NCBI GenBank assembly: GCA_002778785.1
Contig: PEZS01000016.1
Coordinates: 546 to 64,545, forward strand
Source of the DNA: Bdellovibrionales bacterium CG10_big_fil_rev_8_21_14_0_10_45_34
GTDB taxonomy: Bacteria > Bdellovibrionota > Bdellovibrionia > Bdellovibrionales > 1-14-0-10-45-34
Reading direction: 5' to 3'
DNA length: 64,000 nt
Shown in pieces: positions 3,008-11,447 of the stretch. Position 1 is the first letter of the stretch. Every line of letters starts with the position of its first letter. Both the position numbers and the translations under genes were made by a program. The notes beneath the pieces are model-generated. The model saw only the letters and a program-made list of their open reading frames with translations, was not told the DNA's origin and did no database searches.

Positions 3008-4117
3008 TTAGCTCTCAAGATCACTCACGAGGTCGAACCAATAGCGTGGCTCTTTTATGTAGGCAAAGGATTTTTGAAAGGCGGAGTCGTTATATCTTCT
3101 TGCGATCCAAGCCGCGTAATAAACTTGCCGAAGCTTTCTTAACAAAGCGATCCACTGTAGCTGATCAGCAGGAAATTCTCCCAACTGGTTGTATCCCTCT
3201 AAAATCTCCTGCAAGGACGGATCGTTATTGATATCATCGGTCGTCTGAAAAAGCCAAATGTCTTGCACAACAGGCCCCAGGATACAGTCATCGAAGTCCA
3301 CCCAAAGTGGGCCGACCTCATTCCAAAGCACATTCCCGCGATGCGCATCACCGTGGATTCGTTGATAAGGCAAGTCCTCAATGCCCAGGCATTTGTCATA
3401 AAGATATTCACAGGCTTCTTCAAAGCGCTCTTCTACTTGCGGGTCCACCCAGCCTCCCTCTAGCAAAAGTTCAGCAGATGCTCCCACCCAATGATCAATA
3501 TTGAACTCTGGTCGGTATTCAAAATCATGAAGCCTTCCAACGCCATGAAGCCGAGCCATACTACGACCAAGCCAGCGAAGCTGCGAACTGTCTAAATCTT
3601 CGGAGTGGCGGCCGCCAACCTTTGGGCATAGCCCGAAGTATTTCTCTGGGCCCCACATTCCAATCGTCTTTGATTGAGAAAGACTTTTCTCGGCGTGATC
3701 GGAAACTGTAACCGTCTCAACTTGTGATTGCATCTTGCCTGAGAGATTTGCTCGAAGGCTGCGCAGATGTTCTTGAACGTTTTTCAATTGCGCCGGCTTT
3801 CCATCAACTTGAAGTGGAGCTGCAACTGGAATTTCATTTTCAAGACACTCCAAAATAAACTCATGCTCCTCAAGAATTTGCTCCAAACTCCAGCGATGAG
3901 GACGATAATATTTTAAGACTCGGTGGTTCTGCCACAAGTTGGTTTGAGCGGATTCCTTAAAATTATCAGACGGCTCTAACTCAATTTCAACAACACGATT
4001 TTCAAAACTGTTCAAAAACAAAGTTCGCCCAGTCGAACGCAACCCATAGCGCTCAAAGCTCTCAAGTACGAGTGACGGACCTAAACTCTGAAACTCTTCG
4101 CTAATTTTTGCCTTCAC
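3008..4117 (-). CDS. srkA: SrkA (YihE/RdoA)-like stress-response serine/threonine kinase
   Basis: This is an aminoglycoside-phosphotransferase-fold kinase close to E. coli SrkA. Shared blocks are NSFENRVVEIE, YYRPHRWSLEQILEEHEF, then PVAAP, PKVGGR, the catalytic loop HGDAHRGN, the metal-binding WVDFDD, and GPVVQDIWL. SrkA protects cells under stress by phosphorylating proteins. Compared with the about 328-residue E. coli protein there is a roughly 40-residue insert after the N-terminal lobe. I prefer GTG 4117 (or TTG 4120) as start, because an upstream ATG at 4180 would overlap the preceding gene by 52 bp and adds residues absent from the family. It is the last gene of the isoprenoid cluster. 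A metabolic link to that cluster is not evident. Confidence 0.85.
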   Translation of the reverse strand: MKAKISEEFQSLGPSLVLESFERYGLRSTGRTLFLNSFENRVVEIELEPSDNFKESAQTNLWQNHRVLKYYRPHRWSLEQILEEHEFILECLENEIPVAAPLQVDGKPAQLKNVQEHLRSLRANLSGKMQSQVETVTVSDHAEKSLSQSKTIGMWGPEKYFGLCPKVGGRHSEDLDSSQLRWLGRSMARLHGVGRLHDFEYRPEFNIDHWVGASAELLLEGGWVDPQVEERFEEACEYLYDKCLGIEDLPYQRIHGDAHRGNVLWNEVGPLWVDFDDCILGPVVQDIWLFQTTDDINNDPSLQEILEGYNQLGEFPADQLQWIALLRKLRQVYYAAWIARRYNDSAFQKSFAYIKEPRYWFDLVSDLES

Positions 4118-4128
4118 CAAATACCCCG

Positions 4129-4953
4129 CTAAAACAACACCACTTTTTGCTTTTGCGATACGCTTAGCTTGTCTTCGCAAATTCTTTGAATCTCGGCAGG
4201 TTTGTGGCGCCGTGATGGATGTACAAACACGAGATAATCTCCTTTAAACTGATCAATCAAAGGCAATATCTCATCAAAATGTATGTGACCCCATTTGCGA
4301 GCCTCCTCCACGGACTTACCTGAATCAAAGTATGTGACTTCGACAAAAAGATATTTTACGTCTAAAAGTTCAGGGTTCTTATCAAAGACTTCAATCTGAG
4401 TATCTCCGGTATAGGCGAACTGGGACTGCCAAAAATTCTCGCTGACGATAACCCCTTCGTGGGTTAGCTTTCGAATCTCACCTTCTGGTAAATTTTTGTA
4501 TTCTCGCTTCAAGTTCTTACGCAGTTTACTCAAGCGGTATCCGCAAGTAGGAATGCGATGTACTGAGTCGAATACGTCCATCTTCCAATTCTTGCCTAGC
4601 TCTATAACATCTCCTGTTTTTACTCCGACAAATTCAAAATCATACTCGTGGCTTTCAAGACTGCTCCACTCGTTCATTATATTCTTCATGGGCTGAACCA
4701 TACATATTGGCATCCACCAGGTGGATCGTTTATGATTATTGAGTGCCTTCTGAGAGATCACGTAGGGGATTCCGGCAGCGTGGTCCATATGGGCATGGGT
4801 AATGAAGTAGTTGGACTGATCAATGGCTTTGCTGTATCCACTTGCTACATCTACCGAAGCCTTAATTTCTGGCAAAACTAAGCTTGTACCCACACCAGCA
4901 AGGGATATTCCAAAAATCTCTGGAGTGTGTTTGATCTCTGACCAAATTTTCAT
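4129..4953 (-). CDS. metallo-beta-lactamase fold hydrolase, RNase Z-like
   Basis: A 274-residue cytoplasmic protein with the HxHxDH motif HAHMDH at 53-58, VHRIPTCGY around residue 131, YTGDT at 181-185 and GHIHFDE near 222. This pattern (HxHxDH, H-x-x-P-S/T-x-GY, GDT, and a late His) is that of the tRNase Z/arylsulfatase branch of the metallo-beta-lactamase superfamily. Two metal ions are expected. Whether it processes tRNA 3' ends or cleaves a small molecule is not clear, since there is no obvious exosite arm and its length is shorter than typical RNase Z. It sits 16 bp after the prenyl synthase gene, with ATG preceded by AAGG, and is probably cotranscribed with the isoprenoid genes. Confidence 0.7.
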   Translation of the reverse strand: MKIWSEIKHTPEIFGISLAGVGTSLVLPEIKASVDVASGYSKAIDQSNYFITHAHMDHAAGIPYVISQKALNNHKRSTWWMPICMVQPMKNIMNEWSSLESHEYDFEFVGVKTGDVIELGKNWKMDVFDSVHRIPTCGYRLSKLRKNLKREYKNLPEGEIRKLTHEGVIVSENFWQSQFAYTGDTQIEVFDKNPELLDVKYLFVEVTYFDSGKSVEEARKWGHIHFDEILPLIDQFKGDYLVFVHPSRRHKPAEIQRICEDKLSVSQKQKVVLF

Positions 4954-4969
4954 ACCTTAACCGCTGACC

Positions 4970-5980
4970 TCAAAGGACCGCATTCTGAGTTCGCCAAAGA
5001 TTTCTCTGCTTCATCAACGGAAACAAAGGTGACGTTAACAAATCCACGAGAGGCACCAAAGAAGCATGCAACGAGCTGTGAGAAAGAATGAGCTCCGAGT
5101 TTCTCAAATCTTTTGCCATTTCAACAGTGTCAGCAAGGCAAGCATCTAGCGCACCACTTTCTGAGAACTCCTGAATGGCCCAGTGTATATCATCATTAGA
5201 GGTGTTATCGCGAGATGCCAAAAGAATTTCCTTTAACCTTTGCCGCTTCATTGGATCAGCTTGTAGAGAAAAATATTCTACTACCAAAGCACTGATCTTA
5301 CCCTCGGCAATGTCGCTTCCGATGATGTCTCTTCCTTTGGCACCGAAGAGATCAATGACGTCATCTTGAATTTGAAAGATAAGGCCCAAAGGTCGAACAG
5401 TCATAAGAAGTAGCTCTTTTGATTTTTCTTCCATTCCAGTTAGCGCCAACGCCCCTGACAAAGGCATTTCAAATAGTGCTCCCGTCTTAGAAGCAATACA
5501 TTCTCTATAAGACTCTTTGAGTAAACTCGACTCAAGTTGTAACGGAAGGTCTAACTCGAGAGACTGCCCATTCACAATCCTTGAAGCTCCATAGGCCAAC
5601 TCACGGCAAAGGAGTGCTTGTTTTGCTAGATCACCCACCTGATGCAAATTGAGATAGGCAAGCATCAACATCATGTCGCCTGCATTAATTGCCTGACGTT
5701 CGCCGTACTTCACCCATACCGTAGGGTTATCTCGCCTGACTTTATCGCCGTCTTGTAGATCGTCGTGAATGAGAGTTGCATTGTGCAACAACTCACAGCT
5801 ACTTGCCCAAACTATGGCATCTGATTCTGCGACGCTAAATGCACGGCAAAACTCTAAAGTAATCTGACTCCTAATTCGCTTCCCGCCTGTTGATAAATGA
5901 TACAGCAGTGCCTCGCGAAGCTCGCCAGTGGCATTCTCTTCACAAATTCTTAACATGTTTTTTTCTACAAGATCTCTCAC
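4970..5980 (-). CDS. trans-polyprenyl diphosphate synthase (farnesyl/geranylgeranyl type)
   Basis: This enzyme condenses IPP with allylic diphosphates to build farnesyl or longer all-trans prenyl diphosphates, the step fed by the mevalonate genes upstream. Family signatures are GGKRIR (32-37), the first aspartate-rich motif DDLQD (73-77, DDxxD without the two-residue insert of E. coli IspA) and the second, QIQDDVID, about two-thirds through the protein. The small residues before the first motif (NATLIHDD) favour a product longer than farnesyl, such as geranylgeranyl, but chain length cannot be settled from sequence. It starts with GTG behind AGAGG, 19 bp after mevalonate kinase. Length 336 residues, normal for the family. 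Confidence 0.85.
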   Translation of the reverse strand: MRDLVEKNMLRICEENATGELREALLYHLSTGGKRIRSQITLEFCRAFSVAESDAIVWASSCELLHNATLIHDDLQDGDKVRRDNPTVWVKYGERQAINAGDMMLMLAYLNLHQVGDLAKQALLCRELAYGASRIVNGQSLELDLPLQLESSLLKESYRECIASKTGALFEMPLSGALALTGMEEKSKELLLMTVRPLGLIFQIQDDVIDLFGAKGRDIIGSDIAEGKISALVVEYFSLQADPMKRQRLKEILLASRDNTSNDDIHWAIQEFSESGALDACLADTVEMAKDLRNSELILSHSSLHASLVPLVDLLTSPLFPLMKQRNLWRTQNAVL

Positions 5981-5999: not shown

Positions 6000-6896
6000 T
6001 TATAGCACACTTAGAAAGTCACCTTCGGGGAGCGACTTCCAAATGCTAAGTATATGACCGCCGCCACCGGAGCCGGTCGGTTTCACCGCAATAGCTCCTT
6101 TTTTTAAAACCCAATCAGCATGCTCCTCAAGTTTTCCATTGAAAAGCCCCCAACTCTTGAAGCAATCATTGGCGCCAGTTATACCATCACATAGTAAGTC
6201 AAATCCCTTGTCTTGCTCTAGCTTAAGAGCTTGCTCGATCTGCTCTACCGAGTTTCTCATCTGTTGATCAATCCGGATCGCCTCCTCTTTTTTTTGATCA
6301 AAAAGCTTTTTAACTTGTGCAACACAATCAGAAGTTAAGCCCCTTGCCCCGCTGTAACTAAGAAATGTCTTTGGCAACCAATTTAGATGAATGACCTCTA
6401 TGGATTCTCCTCTTACAAACTTAAGTGGCTGAGCTTTTAGTGCCACTGCCACATCTAAACCACTGCTTTCTCCATGAAAGCGATTTTCTAAAACACGAGC
6501 AAACTCATAAGTATCAGTGCTCGAAAGCCAACCAAAAAACTCCATCATTCGTGTCACCGATACGCAAAGCGCAGCTGAAGCCCCAAGGCCTGAGCCCACG
6601 GGTATATCGCTCTTTAATTTGATCTTTCCTCGAACTTCTTTTGACTTTTTACCCAGTGCGCGAAGTGCCTCTGACAAAACAGACGAATAAACTGTTTCTA
6701 TGTGAGAGGTTTCATGGGCTGGAATACTAGACAACTCCGACTCTGCGAGTATCTCCAGGTCCTCGTCACTCGGATAAAAGGAGACCATTAATGAACGACT
6801 TTTTAACGGAACAGCTATTGCCGGCGATCCCCTTAGAACCGCGTGTTCACCCGCCAAAATGCACTTTCCATAAACCGTTGTTTCAAAGCCTTTCAT
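6000..6896 (-). CDS. mvk: mevalonate kinase
   Basis: A GHMP-family kinase that phosphorylates mevalonate with ATP. Visible motifs are the N-terminal GKCILAGEHAVLRG, the ATP-binding glycine-rich loop PVGSGLGASAAL, the conserved Asp in FHGESSGLDVAVAL and the C-terminal KPTGSGGGGH. An open frame allows GTG at 6908, but ATG 6896 is preferred: it follows a GGAG sequence by 7 nt and makes the four-base ATGA overlap with the preceding gene seen throughout this operon. That gives 298 residues. It is followed by the prenyl synthase gene 19 bp downstream. Confidence 0.9.
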   Translation of the reverse strand: MKGFETTVYGKCILAGEHAVLRGSPAIAVPLKSRSLMVSFYPSDEDLEILAESELSSIPAHETSHIETVYSSVLSEALRALGKKSKEVRGKIKLKSDIPVGSGLGASAALCVSVTRMMEFFGWLSSTDTYEFARVLENRFHGESSGLDVAVALKAQPLKFVRGESIEVIHLNWLPKTFLSYSGARGLTSDCVAQVKKLFDQKKEEAIRIDQQMRNSVEQIEQALKLEQDKGFDLLCDGITGANDCFKSWGLFNGKLEEHADWVLKKGAIAVKPTGSGGGGHILSIWKSLPEGDFLSVL

Positions 6897-9031
6897 GGAA
6901 TGCTCCACTCTGGATAGAGAAGATGTATGTTAGCGCCAGCATCCATTGTGACGAGTGGACCTCTGCCTTCGTTGTCCCAACGATTTCTAATTTCATGCAA
7001 TTTCTCTAGTGTCCGGGGAGTCATGTAACCGAAGCTTGGCACGCTTGTTTCAAAAAGGGCGTGCATGTCCCAGAACTCACTCCAAAGCAGGTCGAACAAT
7101 TGTCTTTCGTCTTTAGCATGTATTGTGGACAACAGATCGGCTAACCGCCTCCGAGCTCTCAAATCGCGCCCCTCAAAAAGCAGCGAGGAACGAACTCTTT
7201 TGTGAGCCTCGCTCGAAGAAACTGTTTTTTTAGAATCATCTACAAGAATAACCTCGTGACGAAACCTCACCGGCAAATCAGCCGGCCTCGCTGAATATTC
7301 ATCCCAAAGAGAAAAGGGTTCGAAAAAACTTCTACACGACGACCCAGAACCTTCACGAGATATCGACGCAAGCTCTTCTAACGAAAGTTCCAGCTGAGGA
7401 TTCTGTTTTTTGGCGAGTTGATAAGTGGCCGCTGTTAGAGCTGCAAAGCTGGAGGCTGAACTTGCCAGCCCACAGTCGGACGCGAAGTTGTTAGCTGAGA
7501 GAATTTGAAAGCTTCCTTTAATATTCCATCGAGATTTAAGTGCCTTGAAAAAATCCAAGAATCTCTTCTTCGAATCCCTATCGAGTTCAATCGGGGCCAA
7601 CTTCACCGAGCCTTCCGCCGAACCAAAGTAAATTGCCAATAGTGGAGACCACCGCGCCTCTAGAGAGATCTCATCTACCCGAGCTGACTGCTGGGCCTCA
7701 TAATGCGTGATTGCGCAGTAAGTTCTAAAGCTTGGCAGAGTCACACTAAATGAGGGGTTTGTTGGCACATTGGTATCGGTCTTTCCCATATACTTGATGA
7801 GTGCAATGTTTGAAGGAGCAGAAGCAAAGGCCACGCACTTCTCATCGCTGCTTCGGTGAAATTTGATCGCGCTGTACCGCCCGGTGACTTCCGGCGGCCC
7901 GAACGTATTCGAAGCGTCGACTGAAAAATCTTTGTGACTCGGAGTTGACACTGTCGCACGACCCCTATCAGTTCGAAATATGAGCTTTAGTCCGCAATTC
8001 TGAGGCGTGGCAACTTGTTGATCTTTGATAGGAGCCATGGGCACAAGTTCTTCGTTGATTGAAGGGGTGGCTGAATGCTTAACGCTGAAGTGAGATCCAA
8101 CTGCCTCGTTAGATACGCTTTGAATTTTTGTCTCTAGCGCTTGTTCGTTGAGATCAGAACGATGAAATACAGCTATCGAATCTGCACCGCCCCCTCCACA
8201 ACCTTTTGCAAAATAAACACCTTCAATCTCACAAATTCTTTGAGCCAGTTCGTAAGAACCAGAATCTAAAAGCTCTAACCCCCTGAGCTCTCGTACATAC
8301 TTGCTCATTGAATCAATAAAGCCCGGTAAGTCTGATCTAATAAAAAAGTTTGTACAGTCTTCCGAAATACGAGCTAAGCTTTCGAATTTTGTTTTATCCA
8401 AACTACTCAGATGCAAACGATTGTCTAACTTAATGCCGGTTTGATAAATACTCACACGAACTTCTTCGAACGGCCACTGCATTACCCGAGCATTTTTTGA
8501 GCGACACTCAACAACTGCAGATTCATGGCCGAGTGCTGCCAACTGAGCCCGAAAATCGTATCCGCTTGGCGGTACAACTTCGCCATCACAATAGTATCTC
8601 TTGAATCTTGCTTCGAGTTTATTTTTATCAAGAGAAGCCAAGTCTGTTCCATCCAGCAAACAACTGCCAATAAGAAACTCAGCTCCTGATCTTCCAAACC
8701 CACCTCTGTTCTTATGTGGGTCAATGATGTTTAGCAAACCTAAAAACTGAAAAAATTCCTTGGCGCTAAAATCTATCTGACCAGCGGCTTCAATCGGGGG
8801 CGCCAAAGCGCCCGCTTGTACTCTGGATGGTAGTTCAGATAATATTTGTGAAGACACTGCATCCAGTGCATCAGCTTGACGTGTTTCGTTTGCTGCTGGA
8901 GCAAGCGAGGCACTTGTTTCGTTTGCCGAATATTCAAAAAAAGGTTCGTGAGTTATGAGAAGTGCCGGTGCACTTAGCAACGCTGCATACTCTCCAATTA
9001 GAAAAGTCTTGGAGGGAATTCTGAGTTTCAC
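6893..9031 (-). CDS. fused phosphomevalonate kinase-like / diphosphomevalonate decarboxylase
   Basis: A 712-residue protein with two GHMP-fold halves. Residues 395-712 are a clear diphosphomevalonate decarboxylase: SAPSNIALIKYMGK (404-417), the ATP loop CGLASSASSFAAL (520-532), SREGSGSSCRSF (558-569) and the catalytic-Asp segment MDAGANIHLL (696-705). Residues 1-330 carry degenerate GHMP motifs in the order expected of phosphomevalonate kinase: PSKTFLIGEYAAL (6-18), GGFGRSGAEF (110-119), PPSGYDFRAQL (154-164) and KGCGGGGADSIAVF (276-289). A low-complexity linker separates them. The fusion would perform consecutive ATP-dependent steps, phosphomevalonate to diphosphomevalonate to isopentenyl diphosphate. 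No separate phosphomevalonate kinase lies in the cluster, which supports the assignment. ATGA overlaps join it to both neighbours. Confidence 0.85.
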   Translation of the reverse strand: MKLRIPSKTFLIGEYAALLSAPALLITHEPFFEYSANETSASLAPAANETRQADALDAVSSQILSELPSRVQAGALAPPIEAAGQIDFSAKEFFQFLGLLNIIDPHKNRGGFGRSGAEFLIGSCLLDGTDLASLDKNKLEARFKRYYCDGEVVPPSGYDFRAQLAALGHESAVVECRSKNARVMQWPFEEVRVSIYQTGIKLDNRLHLSSLDKTKFESLARISEDCTNFFIRSDLPGFIDSMSKYVRELRGLELLDSGSYELAQRICEIEGVYFAKGCGGGGADSIAVFHRSDLNEQALETKIQSVSNEAVGSHFSVKHSATPSINEELVPMAPIKDQQVATPQNCGLKLIFRTDRGRATVSTPSHKDFSVDASNTFGPPEVTGRYSAIKFHRSSDEKCVAFASAPSNIALIKYMGKTDTNVPTNPSFSVTLPSFRTYCAITHYEAQQSARVDEISLEARWSPLLAIYFGSAEGSVKLAPIELDRDSKKRFLDFFKALKSRWNIKGSFQILSANNFASDCGLASSASSFAALTAATYQLAKKQNPQLELSLEELASISREGSGSSCRSFFEPFSLWDEYSARPADLPVRFRHEVILVDDSKKTVSSSEAHKRVRSSLLFEGRDLRARRRLADLLSTIHAKDERQLFDLLWSEFWDMHALFETSVPSFGYMTPRTLEKLHEIRNRWDNEGRGPLVTMDAGANIHLLYPEWSIP

Positions 9032-10362
9032 GCAGGGCCCTCTGAAGGCACCATTACTTTGCGAAAACCTACGGCCTCAGATCGAAGGTTTTTCAAAGCA
9101 TCCTTCGCTTGGGTTAAAGAAACTCTTTTTTCCTTTACAAGAATTTCTTCAAGCACCCTTTGAATCAAAGGCATCTCTGCCTCGCTTGCGCCGGCAGCAA
9201 CCGCTAAGTTGGCCGCGTGAAGTTTCATATGGCCTTCAACAACTCCCACCGTTGAAAGTGCTCTCAACGCGCCGAGATTTTGGACAAGCCCCACAGCAGC
9301 ACAAATCCGGCTCAACTGCTCAGCCGACTCCACTCCAAGCATACGAATTACGAGTTGTGCCGTAGGGTGAAGCGCCGTCATTCCGCCAACGGTACCAACA
9401 ACTAGCGGGCCCTCAAACTCACCGATGAGACTCTCACCTTCTTTACGCCACTTCGTGAGCGCACGATACTGTCCAGATCGTGCCGCGTACGAATGCAGGC
9501 CTGCCGAGACTGCACGCCAGTCATTGCCCGTAGCAATCAACACGGCGTCTATGCCATTCATGATTCCCTTATTGTGGGTGGCGGCCCGGTAAGGATCCAC
9601 TTCTGCGAATAACCCTGCCTCAACAATACCGTCAACCAAACTTTCTTCTAGATCACGCAACACAACTTTCGCTCGAGTCACCTTGGAATCCACGAGGTTC
9701 GAAAGAATACACATGGTGACTTTCTCTGAAGTGGCCTGTTCAACATGCTTTTTTAAACTTTCGCAAGCTTGGTTCATTATGTTGGCCCCCATTGCATCAC
9801 AAGGGTCGCAATAAACATGAATCACCAACATTTTAGCACCGTCGTTGCGATCTAGCGTGCGGCTTTCAATGCGGGTAAAACCACCTCCCCTCATAACAAG
9901 GCTTGCATTTTTCTCGTTGAGTAACTTGAGCCAGCGTTCTCGTTGCTGCTCTATTTGAGCAAGCGAACCTTCGACATTCTTTGGCTTGGCTATTTGAATT
10001 TGGCCGATGATTTCTTTACCGACTACCTCAGTAGAGATTTCTCCACAGCTTCTAATCCATTTAGCGGTCTTACTCGCTGCCGCAATAATTGAAGTCTCCT
10101 CCACTGCCATAGGAACTGCATAATCGCGACCATCGATGCGAAAGTTCATCGCAACACCCAAAGGAAGTGAAAAACAGCCGATCGTGTTTTCAATGAAGTG
10201 CTCAGAGAGAGCTTTAGGTAAAGACTCGCCGAGTTCGAGAAACTCAACATCTCTAGTTGTCAGCAATCCCAGCTTTTTTAAACGACTCAGTCTCTCGGAT
10301 CGGGGTAATTTAGAAAAACCCGAGCACATTTGTTCATAGTTGGTAAGTTCGTCGCTGCTCAT
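9028..10362 (-). CDS. mvaA: hydroxymethylglutaryl-CoA reductase, class II (soluble)
   Basis: This enzyme reduces HMG-CoA to mevalonate, the committing step of the pathway. It has no membrane anchor, and its 444 residues are typical of bacterial class II. The four catalytic residues are visible: Glu in ENTIG (near 58), Lys in HNKGIMNG, Asp in GNDWRA and the C-terminal His in LHAANLAVAAGA. DAMGANIMNQACE and TVGGMTALHP form the cofactor and substrate region. Cofactor preference (NADH or NADPH) cannot be read. The ATG overlaps the stop of the isomerase gene as ATGA, and its own stop overlaps the fused kinase/decarboxylase gene the same way, so the three genes are likely translationally coupled. 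Confidence 0.95.
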   Translation of the reverse strand: MSSDELTNYEQMCSGFSKLPRSERLSRLKKLGLLTTRDVEFLELGESLPKALSEHFIENTIGCFSLPLGVAMNFRIDGRDYAVPMAVEETSIIAAASKTAKWIRSCGEISTEVVGKEIIGQIQIAKPKNVEGSLAQIEQQRERWLKLLNEKNASLVMRGGGFTRIESRTLDRNDGAKMLVIHVYCDPCDAMGANIMNQACESLKKHVEQATSEKVTMCILSNLVDSKVTRAKVVLRDLEESLVDGIVEAGLFAEVDPYRAATHNKGIMNGIDAVLIATGNDWRAVSAGLHSYAARSGQYRALTKWRKEGESLIGEFEGPLVVGTVGGMTALHPTAQLVIRMLGVESAEQLSRICAAVGLVQNLGALRALSTVGVVEGHMKLHAANLAVAAGASEAEMPLIQRVLEEILVKEKRVSLTQAKDALKNLRSEAVGFRKVMVPSEGPA

Positions 10363-11447
10363 ATTCCTGCTCCAATTATCTGGTACTTGATTTCATTGTT
10401 TAACTTAGAAGGTTCCTCTGATCCCGTACAAAAAAGGCTGATTTTCAATTCTGCTTCGATTGTATCCATCCATTTCAACAAGCCATCTACTTTTTGCTCA
10501 GTTAATGCCTTTAATGGTGCCTGTGCAAAACCGACAATTCTCGCACCAAGAGCCAAGGTTTTTGCAGCATCAACTCCTGTTTTGATACCACCCGAGGCCC
10601 AGACTTCAAGGCCCTTCTTTTGATATGGTACCGACCAAAGCAGACTCTGCAAGGTCGTGTTACCCCAATCACCAAAAGCCTCTAGCGAACGAGAGCCAAA
10701 ATCATCTCTTCGTCTGACACTTTCAATTCGCCCCCAATGGGTTCCGCCAAGACCGGCAACGTCTGCTACTTGAACTCCCGAATCGAGTAAAACCTGAAAA
10801 TCTTCTAACGAGAGGCCGCTTCCGGTTTCTTTAGCAACAACGGGAATATTGAGACTCTCAACAAGTTTCTCAAGCCTCTTTTGCCCACCCCGAAAAAACG
10901 GAGTTCCTTCTGTCTGAAGTGCTTCTTGTAGTGGATTTAGGTGCACAATGAACCCTGCCGGCTCGAGACTATCTACCAACTGTTCAATCTGCCCTTGATT
11001 GGTATTAACTAACTGACTCAAACCCAAATTACACAACGCTTTCACTCGAGGATAGCGACGGCGTAATTTTCTCATTTGCTCATTAGCCTCAAGATCAAAT
11101 AGTTGCCTTCTTTGAGAGCCAATGCCAATGAGCCAACCTTTCGACTCCGCGGCAAAAAAGAGGTCATTATTGATTGAGTCAGCTCCGGGATGACCAGCGG
11201 TCATGGAACTTATCAAAAAAGGCGTTGGCAGCGCCCCTAAAATAGAGCGCGTACAAAGAGTGACATCTTCGAAATTGATTTCAGGAAGTCCGCGATGAAC
11301 AAGCCTCACCCGCTGAAGGCCTGTAGGGATCGAAGAAGCAGAATCAGGTCCTAACGCTAACTCAATGTGATCGCGTTTACGGCTTTCAAAATCACTTATC
11401 GATTCTGATGCTTGGTTTAAAAGAGGTTTTTTTGATATGTCGTTCAT
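10359..11447 (-). CDS. fni: isopentenyl-diphosphate delta-isomerase, type 2 (FMN-dependent)
   Basis: Interconverts isopentenyl and dimethylallyl diphosphate using reduced FMN. Family blocks are RKRDHIELAL near the N-terminus, SSMTAGHPGA, IGIGSQRRQL, HLNPLQEALQTEG (the glutamine/glutamate region that binds Mg-diphosphate), VAKETGSGLS, VADVAGLGGTHW and the FMN-phosphate loop SGGIKTG. Its length of 362 residues is typical. It is the first gene of the mevalonate run, 142 bp after rplT. The gap holds a 6-bp inverted repeat but no strong terminator, so read-through from the ribosomal operon is possible. Confidence 0.95.
   Translation of the reverse strand: MNDISKKPLLNQASESISDFESRKRDHIELALGPDSASSIPTGLQRVRLVHRGLPEINFEDVTLCTRSILGALPTPFLISSMTAGHPGADSINNDLFFAAESKGWLIGIGSQRRQLFDLEANEQMRKLRRRYPRVKALCNLGLSQLVNTNQGQIEQLVDSLEPAGFIVHLNPLQEALQTEGTPFFRGGQKRLEKLVESLNIPVVAKETGSGLSLEDFQVLLDSGVQVADVAGLGGTHWGRIESVRRRDDFGSRSLEAFGDWGNTTLQSLLWSVPYQKKGLEVWASGGIKTGVDAAKTLALGARIVGFAQAPLKALTEQKVDGLLKWMDTIEAELKISLFCTGSEEPSKLNNEIKYQIIGAGI

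Follow-up and report, generated by a model that had tools for sequence, protein, structure and literature searches.

We found that a single gene on the minus strand of the window (the whole stretch of 64,000 nucleotides that was analysed) joins a phosphomevalonate kinase (PMK)-like domain to a diphosphomevalonate decarboxylase (MVD). It probably encodes a bifunctional PMK-MVD enzyme that arose when two neighbouring genes of the mevalonate operon of Bdellovibrionales, coupled in their translation, were fused, the two domains acting as independent, tethered units. As a reading of the gene, the PMK-MVD fusion is well supported at the level of sequence and of predicted fold. In the proposed scheme, domain 1 would phosphorylate phosphomevalonate to mevalonate diphosphate, and domain 2 would decarboxylate mevalonate diphosphate at the expense of ATP, giving isopentenyl diphosphate. 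The 712 codons of window 6893-9031 read on the minus strand without an internal stop, and stops are abundant on the plus strand across the same interval; a preliminary description of this DNA had placed the 712-residue frame exactly, without giving its strand. The GTG start has a moderate Shine-Dalgarno match (-6.3 kcal/mol), and the gene is presumably translated as a single polypeptide. The gene, its parts and its neighbours are as follows.

6893..9031, minus strand: fused PMK-like and MVD gene, GTG start, 712 aa
8078..9031, minus strand: domain 1 (residues 1-318), divergent GHMP kinase, presumed PMK, from the 3k17 profile match, the AlphaFold2 GHMP fold and motif residues
7847..8077, minus strand: linker (residues 319-395), predicted disordered, counterpart absent in relatives
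6896..7846, minus strand: domain 2 (residues 396-712), MVD, from Pfam/TIGRFAM models, solved relatives and catalytic residues
6000..6908, minus strand: mevalonate kinase (MVK), next operon gene; TIGR00549 at 153 bits, just missing the cut-off of 163, and PF00288 above cut-off
9028..10362, minus strand: HMG-CoA reductase (HMGR), upstream gene; TIGR00532 at 344 bits, cut-off 260
10359..11447, minus strand: type 2 isopentenyl-diphosphate isomerase (IDI2); TIGR02151 at 298 bits, cut-off 281
4970..5980, minus strand: polyprenyl diphosphate synthase; PF00348 at 184 bits

The fusion gene overlaps the end of the HMGR gene by 4 nt and the MVK gene by 16 nt, and the IDI2, HMGR, fusion, MVK and polyprenyl diphosphate synthase genes look like one minus-strand operon. 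These model matches bear out the earlier statement that lower-pathway genes lie adjacent. Within the fusion gene, the G+C content at third codon positions steps from 0.33 over the kinase half to 0.46 over the decarboxylase half. Further downstream, two genes in the same direction (window 3008-4180 and 4129-4953) encode an RNase Z-like metallo-hydrolase and an APH-type (PRK11768-like) kinase; the end of the former overlaps the latter by 52 nt, and the kinase, listed from a TTG, may in fact begin later.

By its sequence, the region of residues 396-712 is a diphosphomevalonate decarboxylase. The MVD N-terminal domain model PF22700 scores 105.4 bits on this half (cut-off 27), and in a comparison of residues 402-707 with solved MVDs the best match was 3lto (7e-58). 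TIGR01240 reaches 130 bits, under its equivalog cut-off of 171, and the MVD C-terminal model PF18376 reaches 19.3, under its cut-off of 23.2; we therefore base the assignment on PF22700, on 3lto and on the catalytic residues. The decarboxylase motifs, all of which the preliminary description ascribed to this half, are indeed in place, namely the IKYxGK lysine (K413/K417), the SGSxCRS arginine (R567) and the MDAG aspartate (D697). The half retains 76 of the 80 columns with at least 90% conservation among relatives, including Lys413, Ser565, Arg567 and Asp697, and the aspartate equivalent to Asp697 is the decarboxylation residue of MVD (PMC9254496). The phosphomevalonate decarboxylase of the alternate pathway was rejected as an identity for this half, with NF040704 at 55.9 bits (cut-off 475) compared to 130.4 for TIGR01240.

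The kinase half is more divergent. Residues 1-322 alone gave no match in searches of Pfam and NCBIfam, the half alone gave no match with a useful E-value to PDB sequences, and no curated PMK model matched domain 1 above cut-off; we therefore name it PMK-like and do not place it in TIGR01220. Of 60 genomes from the same order, nearly all encode a homologue as a gene of its own, which in most cases immediately precedes MVD. A profile built from 48 members (the kinase half and 47 relatives) matches Listeria 3k17 best (1.5e-12), followed by MVKs and the S. pneumoniae PMK. AlphaFold2 folds the kinase half confidently as a GHMP domain (pLDDT 85, pTM 0.84), the outcome of a check that had been proposed earlier. 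Together with the decarboxylase matches, this agrees with the claim of two GHMP folds in pathway order. Foldseek returned MVK, PMK and galactokinase structures, all with probability 1.00, for this model; it was set aside as a discriminator of PMK, as MVKs and galactokinases rank level with PMKs. Genomes labelled Legionellales, Gammaproteobacteria and Pseudomonadota likewise encode members of this PMK-like family (L140, L141 and L142, E 1e-72 to 1e-86).

Domain 1 retains the catalytic Lys8 and Asp159, the P-loop Ser115, and the pair formed by Glu14 of motif 1 and Lys276 of motif 3. Residues of the Leishmania MVK whose roles have been described (PMC1851959), Lys18, Glu24, Ser112, Ser152, Asp155 and Lys279, map to K8, E14, S115, S156, D159 and K276, where Lys279 is equated with K276 through motif 3 and not through the alignment as printed. 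At the position of His25, which lines the substrate in MVK, domain 1 has Tyr15, and motif 1 reads GEY, as in 3k17, compared to GEH in the operon's own MVK. Five near-invariant columns are changed (Pro82 to Ala, Gly166 to Ala, Thr204 to Asn, His205 to Arg and Ala280 to Gly), and the changes at 204 and 205 hit columns that are 98% conserved. Asn204 replaces a substrate-loop threonine near the catalytic aspartate that is present in all 55 relatives covering the site; in MVK, a water molecule links the aligned Thr198 to the hydroxyl of the substrate next to the catalytic aspartate (PMC1851959).

The preliminary description had left open whether the first half is an active PMK or a degenerate partner. 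If it were degenerate or regulatory, it would have lost PMK activity and would stabilise or regulate the MVD, while an unrecognised enzyme made mevalonate diphosphate. Asn204, Arg205 and Gly280 at near-invariant positions speak for this, as do the failure of curated models to match and a long branch in the family tree (2.61, among the longest of the family, whose median is 0.67); the HMGR of the same genome is long-branched as well (0.91 compared to 0.29). From the trees we draw no claim on the history of the kinase half, as its placement is weak and long branches meet. On the other side, the catalytic Lys, Asp and Ser and the Glu/Lys pair are all kept, and an unfused relative (L050) shows slightly more deviations from the family consensus, six as compared to five here; two other stand-alone members (L080 and L032) are changed at four near-invariant columns each. 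Since unfused relatives deviate at similar numbers of columns, the count of deviations alone does not imply loss of function.

The content of the genome points in the same direction. We searched the draft assembly (3.06 Mb, 16 contigs, 100% complete) for other candidates. GHMP_N matched four proteins genome-wide, namely the MVK, the MVD half and two heptose-kinase-like proteins; the latter two (contig C2) were rejected as PMKs because they look like heptose-kinase relatives. The PMK-like profile found a single strong locus in the genome, and neither the animal-type PMK model nor TIGR01220 gave anything above cut-off, so the statement that there is no other PMK holds genome-wide as far as these searches reach. 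Neither of the two results named beforehand as counting against the fusion reading, a first half devoid of a GHMP fold or a PMK encoded elsewhere in the genome, was thus obtained. Dxr was absent from the genome search as well, and the isoprenoid precursors are therefore most likely made through the mevalonate pathway, which appears to be the sole route. Since these searches gave neither a second PMK nor Dxr, domain 1 is the only PMK candidate. Taken with the retained residues, this makes a degenerate kinase half unlikely, although Thr204 to Asn and His205 to Arg count the other way. A variant in which the kinase half changed or lost its catalysis only after the fusion, through these two substitutions, and now serves the MVD as an allosteric or substrate-presenting partner while an unknown enzyme acts as PMK, is in our view quite unlikely.

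The fusion is set apart from the separate genes of all relatives examined. Relatives carry the order IDI2-HMGR-PMK-MVD-MVK, in which PMK and MVD are two genes in nearly all cases, a 4-nt overlap of the MVD gene with the PMK stop being the commonest layout. The APSNIA motif of MVD lies 7-103 nt past the PMK stop in most relatives, whereas it lies about 85 codons past the end of the kinase domain here. MVD is present in 128 of the 144 genomes of the class, and only the present genome has a long frame (727 aa from stop to stop, as compared to at most 435 in the others). A second large family in the phylum has MVD in 119 of its 129 genomes, and no frame exceeds 406 aa. The scan of the whole phylum found MVD in 298 of 369 genomes; inspection covered the matches listed, leaving out about 31 MVD genomes outside the two groups, and about 270 other MVD frames of the phylum are all unfused. 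The order around a Legionellales genome (G369) has MVD in 134 of 143 genomes with no frame above 379 aa, and the 27 loci from a scan of GTDB contigs are likewise unfused. The search for fused orthologues in Bdellovibrionota, suggested earlier, thus yielded no second case among the relatives and frames inspected; the family-level lineage to which the fusion belongs is represented by this one draft genome.

Several long frames were considered as further fusions and rejected. In the G+C-rich genome G339, a 645-aa frame is open by chance and the PMK is read in a different frame; the long frames of G010, G035 and G057 arose from read-through of an in-frame stop. In these last three genomes, the PMK-like and MVD genes occupy the same frame with a stop between them (L031 4359-6368 in G010, L033 4029-5927 in G057 and L032 3407-5428 in G035). 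Reading through or losing this stop would join the two genes, an easy path to a fusion. As the two genes share a frame in three relatives, loss of a stop plus an insertion is a plausible origin of the fusion. The operon is split or interrupted in G005, G006, G007 and G012: 600-1300 nt separate the PMK and MVD genes in G005, G007 and G012 (L046, L076 and L047), and the two are on different contigs in G006 (C10 and C52; L048 and L081). In G369 they lie about 12 kb apart (G369:C84:21691-22506, L141, and G369:C84:8456-9322). Adjacency is therefore unnecessary for function. The scan of the Legionellales order also met an MVD in two pieces with an internal TGA (G469:C1:2436847-2437718), which may be a frameshift, an error or a pseudogene.

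In the AlphaFold2 model of the full-length protein, the 77 residues 319-395 have a pLDDT of about 30 and the overall pTM is 0.51. The fold was computed with alignment A3, where a natural stop is translated as Gln in the three rows that span both halves, solely to hold the halves in register; an alignment of mixed PMK and MVD rows (A2) was rejected, as it placed PMKs against the MVD half. The low pTM and the disordered linker leave the two domains without a defined relative placement in the model, and the linker fits a flexible tether. This bears on the proposal that the fusion is a channelling metabolon, in which the kinase hands mevalonate diphosphate straight to the active site of the decarboxylase. 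Consecutive enzymes joined in pathway order on one chain would suit such a transfer. However, the predicted linker is disordered, the domains show no defined packing in the model, and relatives manage with separate and sometimes distant genes; moreover, a need to protect the intermediate has no support here, and its supposed instability, part of the original argument, is not established by anything in the analysis. We regard channelling as highly unlikely. The bifunctional enzyme would instead consist of independent catalytic units on a flexible linker, and the models are consistent with a benefit limited to a 1:1 supply of both enzymes and their proximity, and support neither a tunnel nor a shielded intermediate.

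Another explanation is that the two halves are not one protein in the cell, either because a stop was lost through an assembly or base-calling error, or because an internal start, for example at codon 400, also yields a separate MVD. The fusion is known from a single draft genome, an internal GTG does stand at codon 400 just ahead of the conserved MVD start, and the codon signal of the linker is weak, yet best in the gene's frame. Against this, the linker stays open in frame for about 77 codons while both other frames contain stops, and the ribosome-binding matches at codon 400 (-2.7 kcal/mol, equal to the background mean of the gene) and upstream of codon 332 (-1.0 kcal/mol) are poor compared to that at the start of the fusion; codon 361 has a better match (-5.9 kcal/mol), but lies within the linker. 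We therefore consider this explanation very unlikely.

Compared with known systems, domain 1 resembles Lin0012 of Listeria innocua (3k17) and the S. pneumoniae PMK (1k47, 3gon) in its GHMP fold, G-x-G-x-S-x-A loop, conserved Asp, glycine-rich motif 3 and GEY motif 1, the last read in the 3k17 alignment. It differs from them in very low identity, in missing TIGR01220 and in being fused to MVD. Lin0012 is presumably the PMK of the Listeria mevalonate genes; the title of the PDB entry gives only "Lin0012 protein". The MVD half resembles 3lto, which we take to be the Legionella pneumophila MVD, and the decarboxylases of TIGR01240 and PF22700 in its full-length match and catalytic residues, whereas 3lto is a stand-alone enzyme and the half described here is fused and under the TIGR01240 cut-off. 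Other Bdellovibrionales and Legionellales genomes encode homologous proteins, and the gene order is common to Bdellovibrionales; in these genomes, however, PMK-like and MVD are two genes, mostly with a 4-nt overlap or a few nt apart, and lack the 77-residue linker. MvaE of Enterococcus, a bifunctional thiolase-HMGR fusion, likewise joins two mevalonate-pathway enzymes on one chain, although its enzymes belong to the upper pathway and have unrelated folds. In the open-access papers that we searched, we found no earlier report of a PMK-MVD fusion.

These results describe a new combination of two ordinary enzymes in one genome, a real, modest and lineage-specific fusion. If active, it would be a bifunctional chain already made by nature, covering two steps of the lower mevalonate pathway that consume ATP. 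The PMK-like family of Bdellovibrionota and Legionellales is unnamed, has hardly any Pfam hits and deserves a family model of its own. Annotating this family, which would account for the PMK step so far missing in many of these bacteria, may be the larger benefit.
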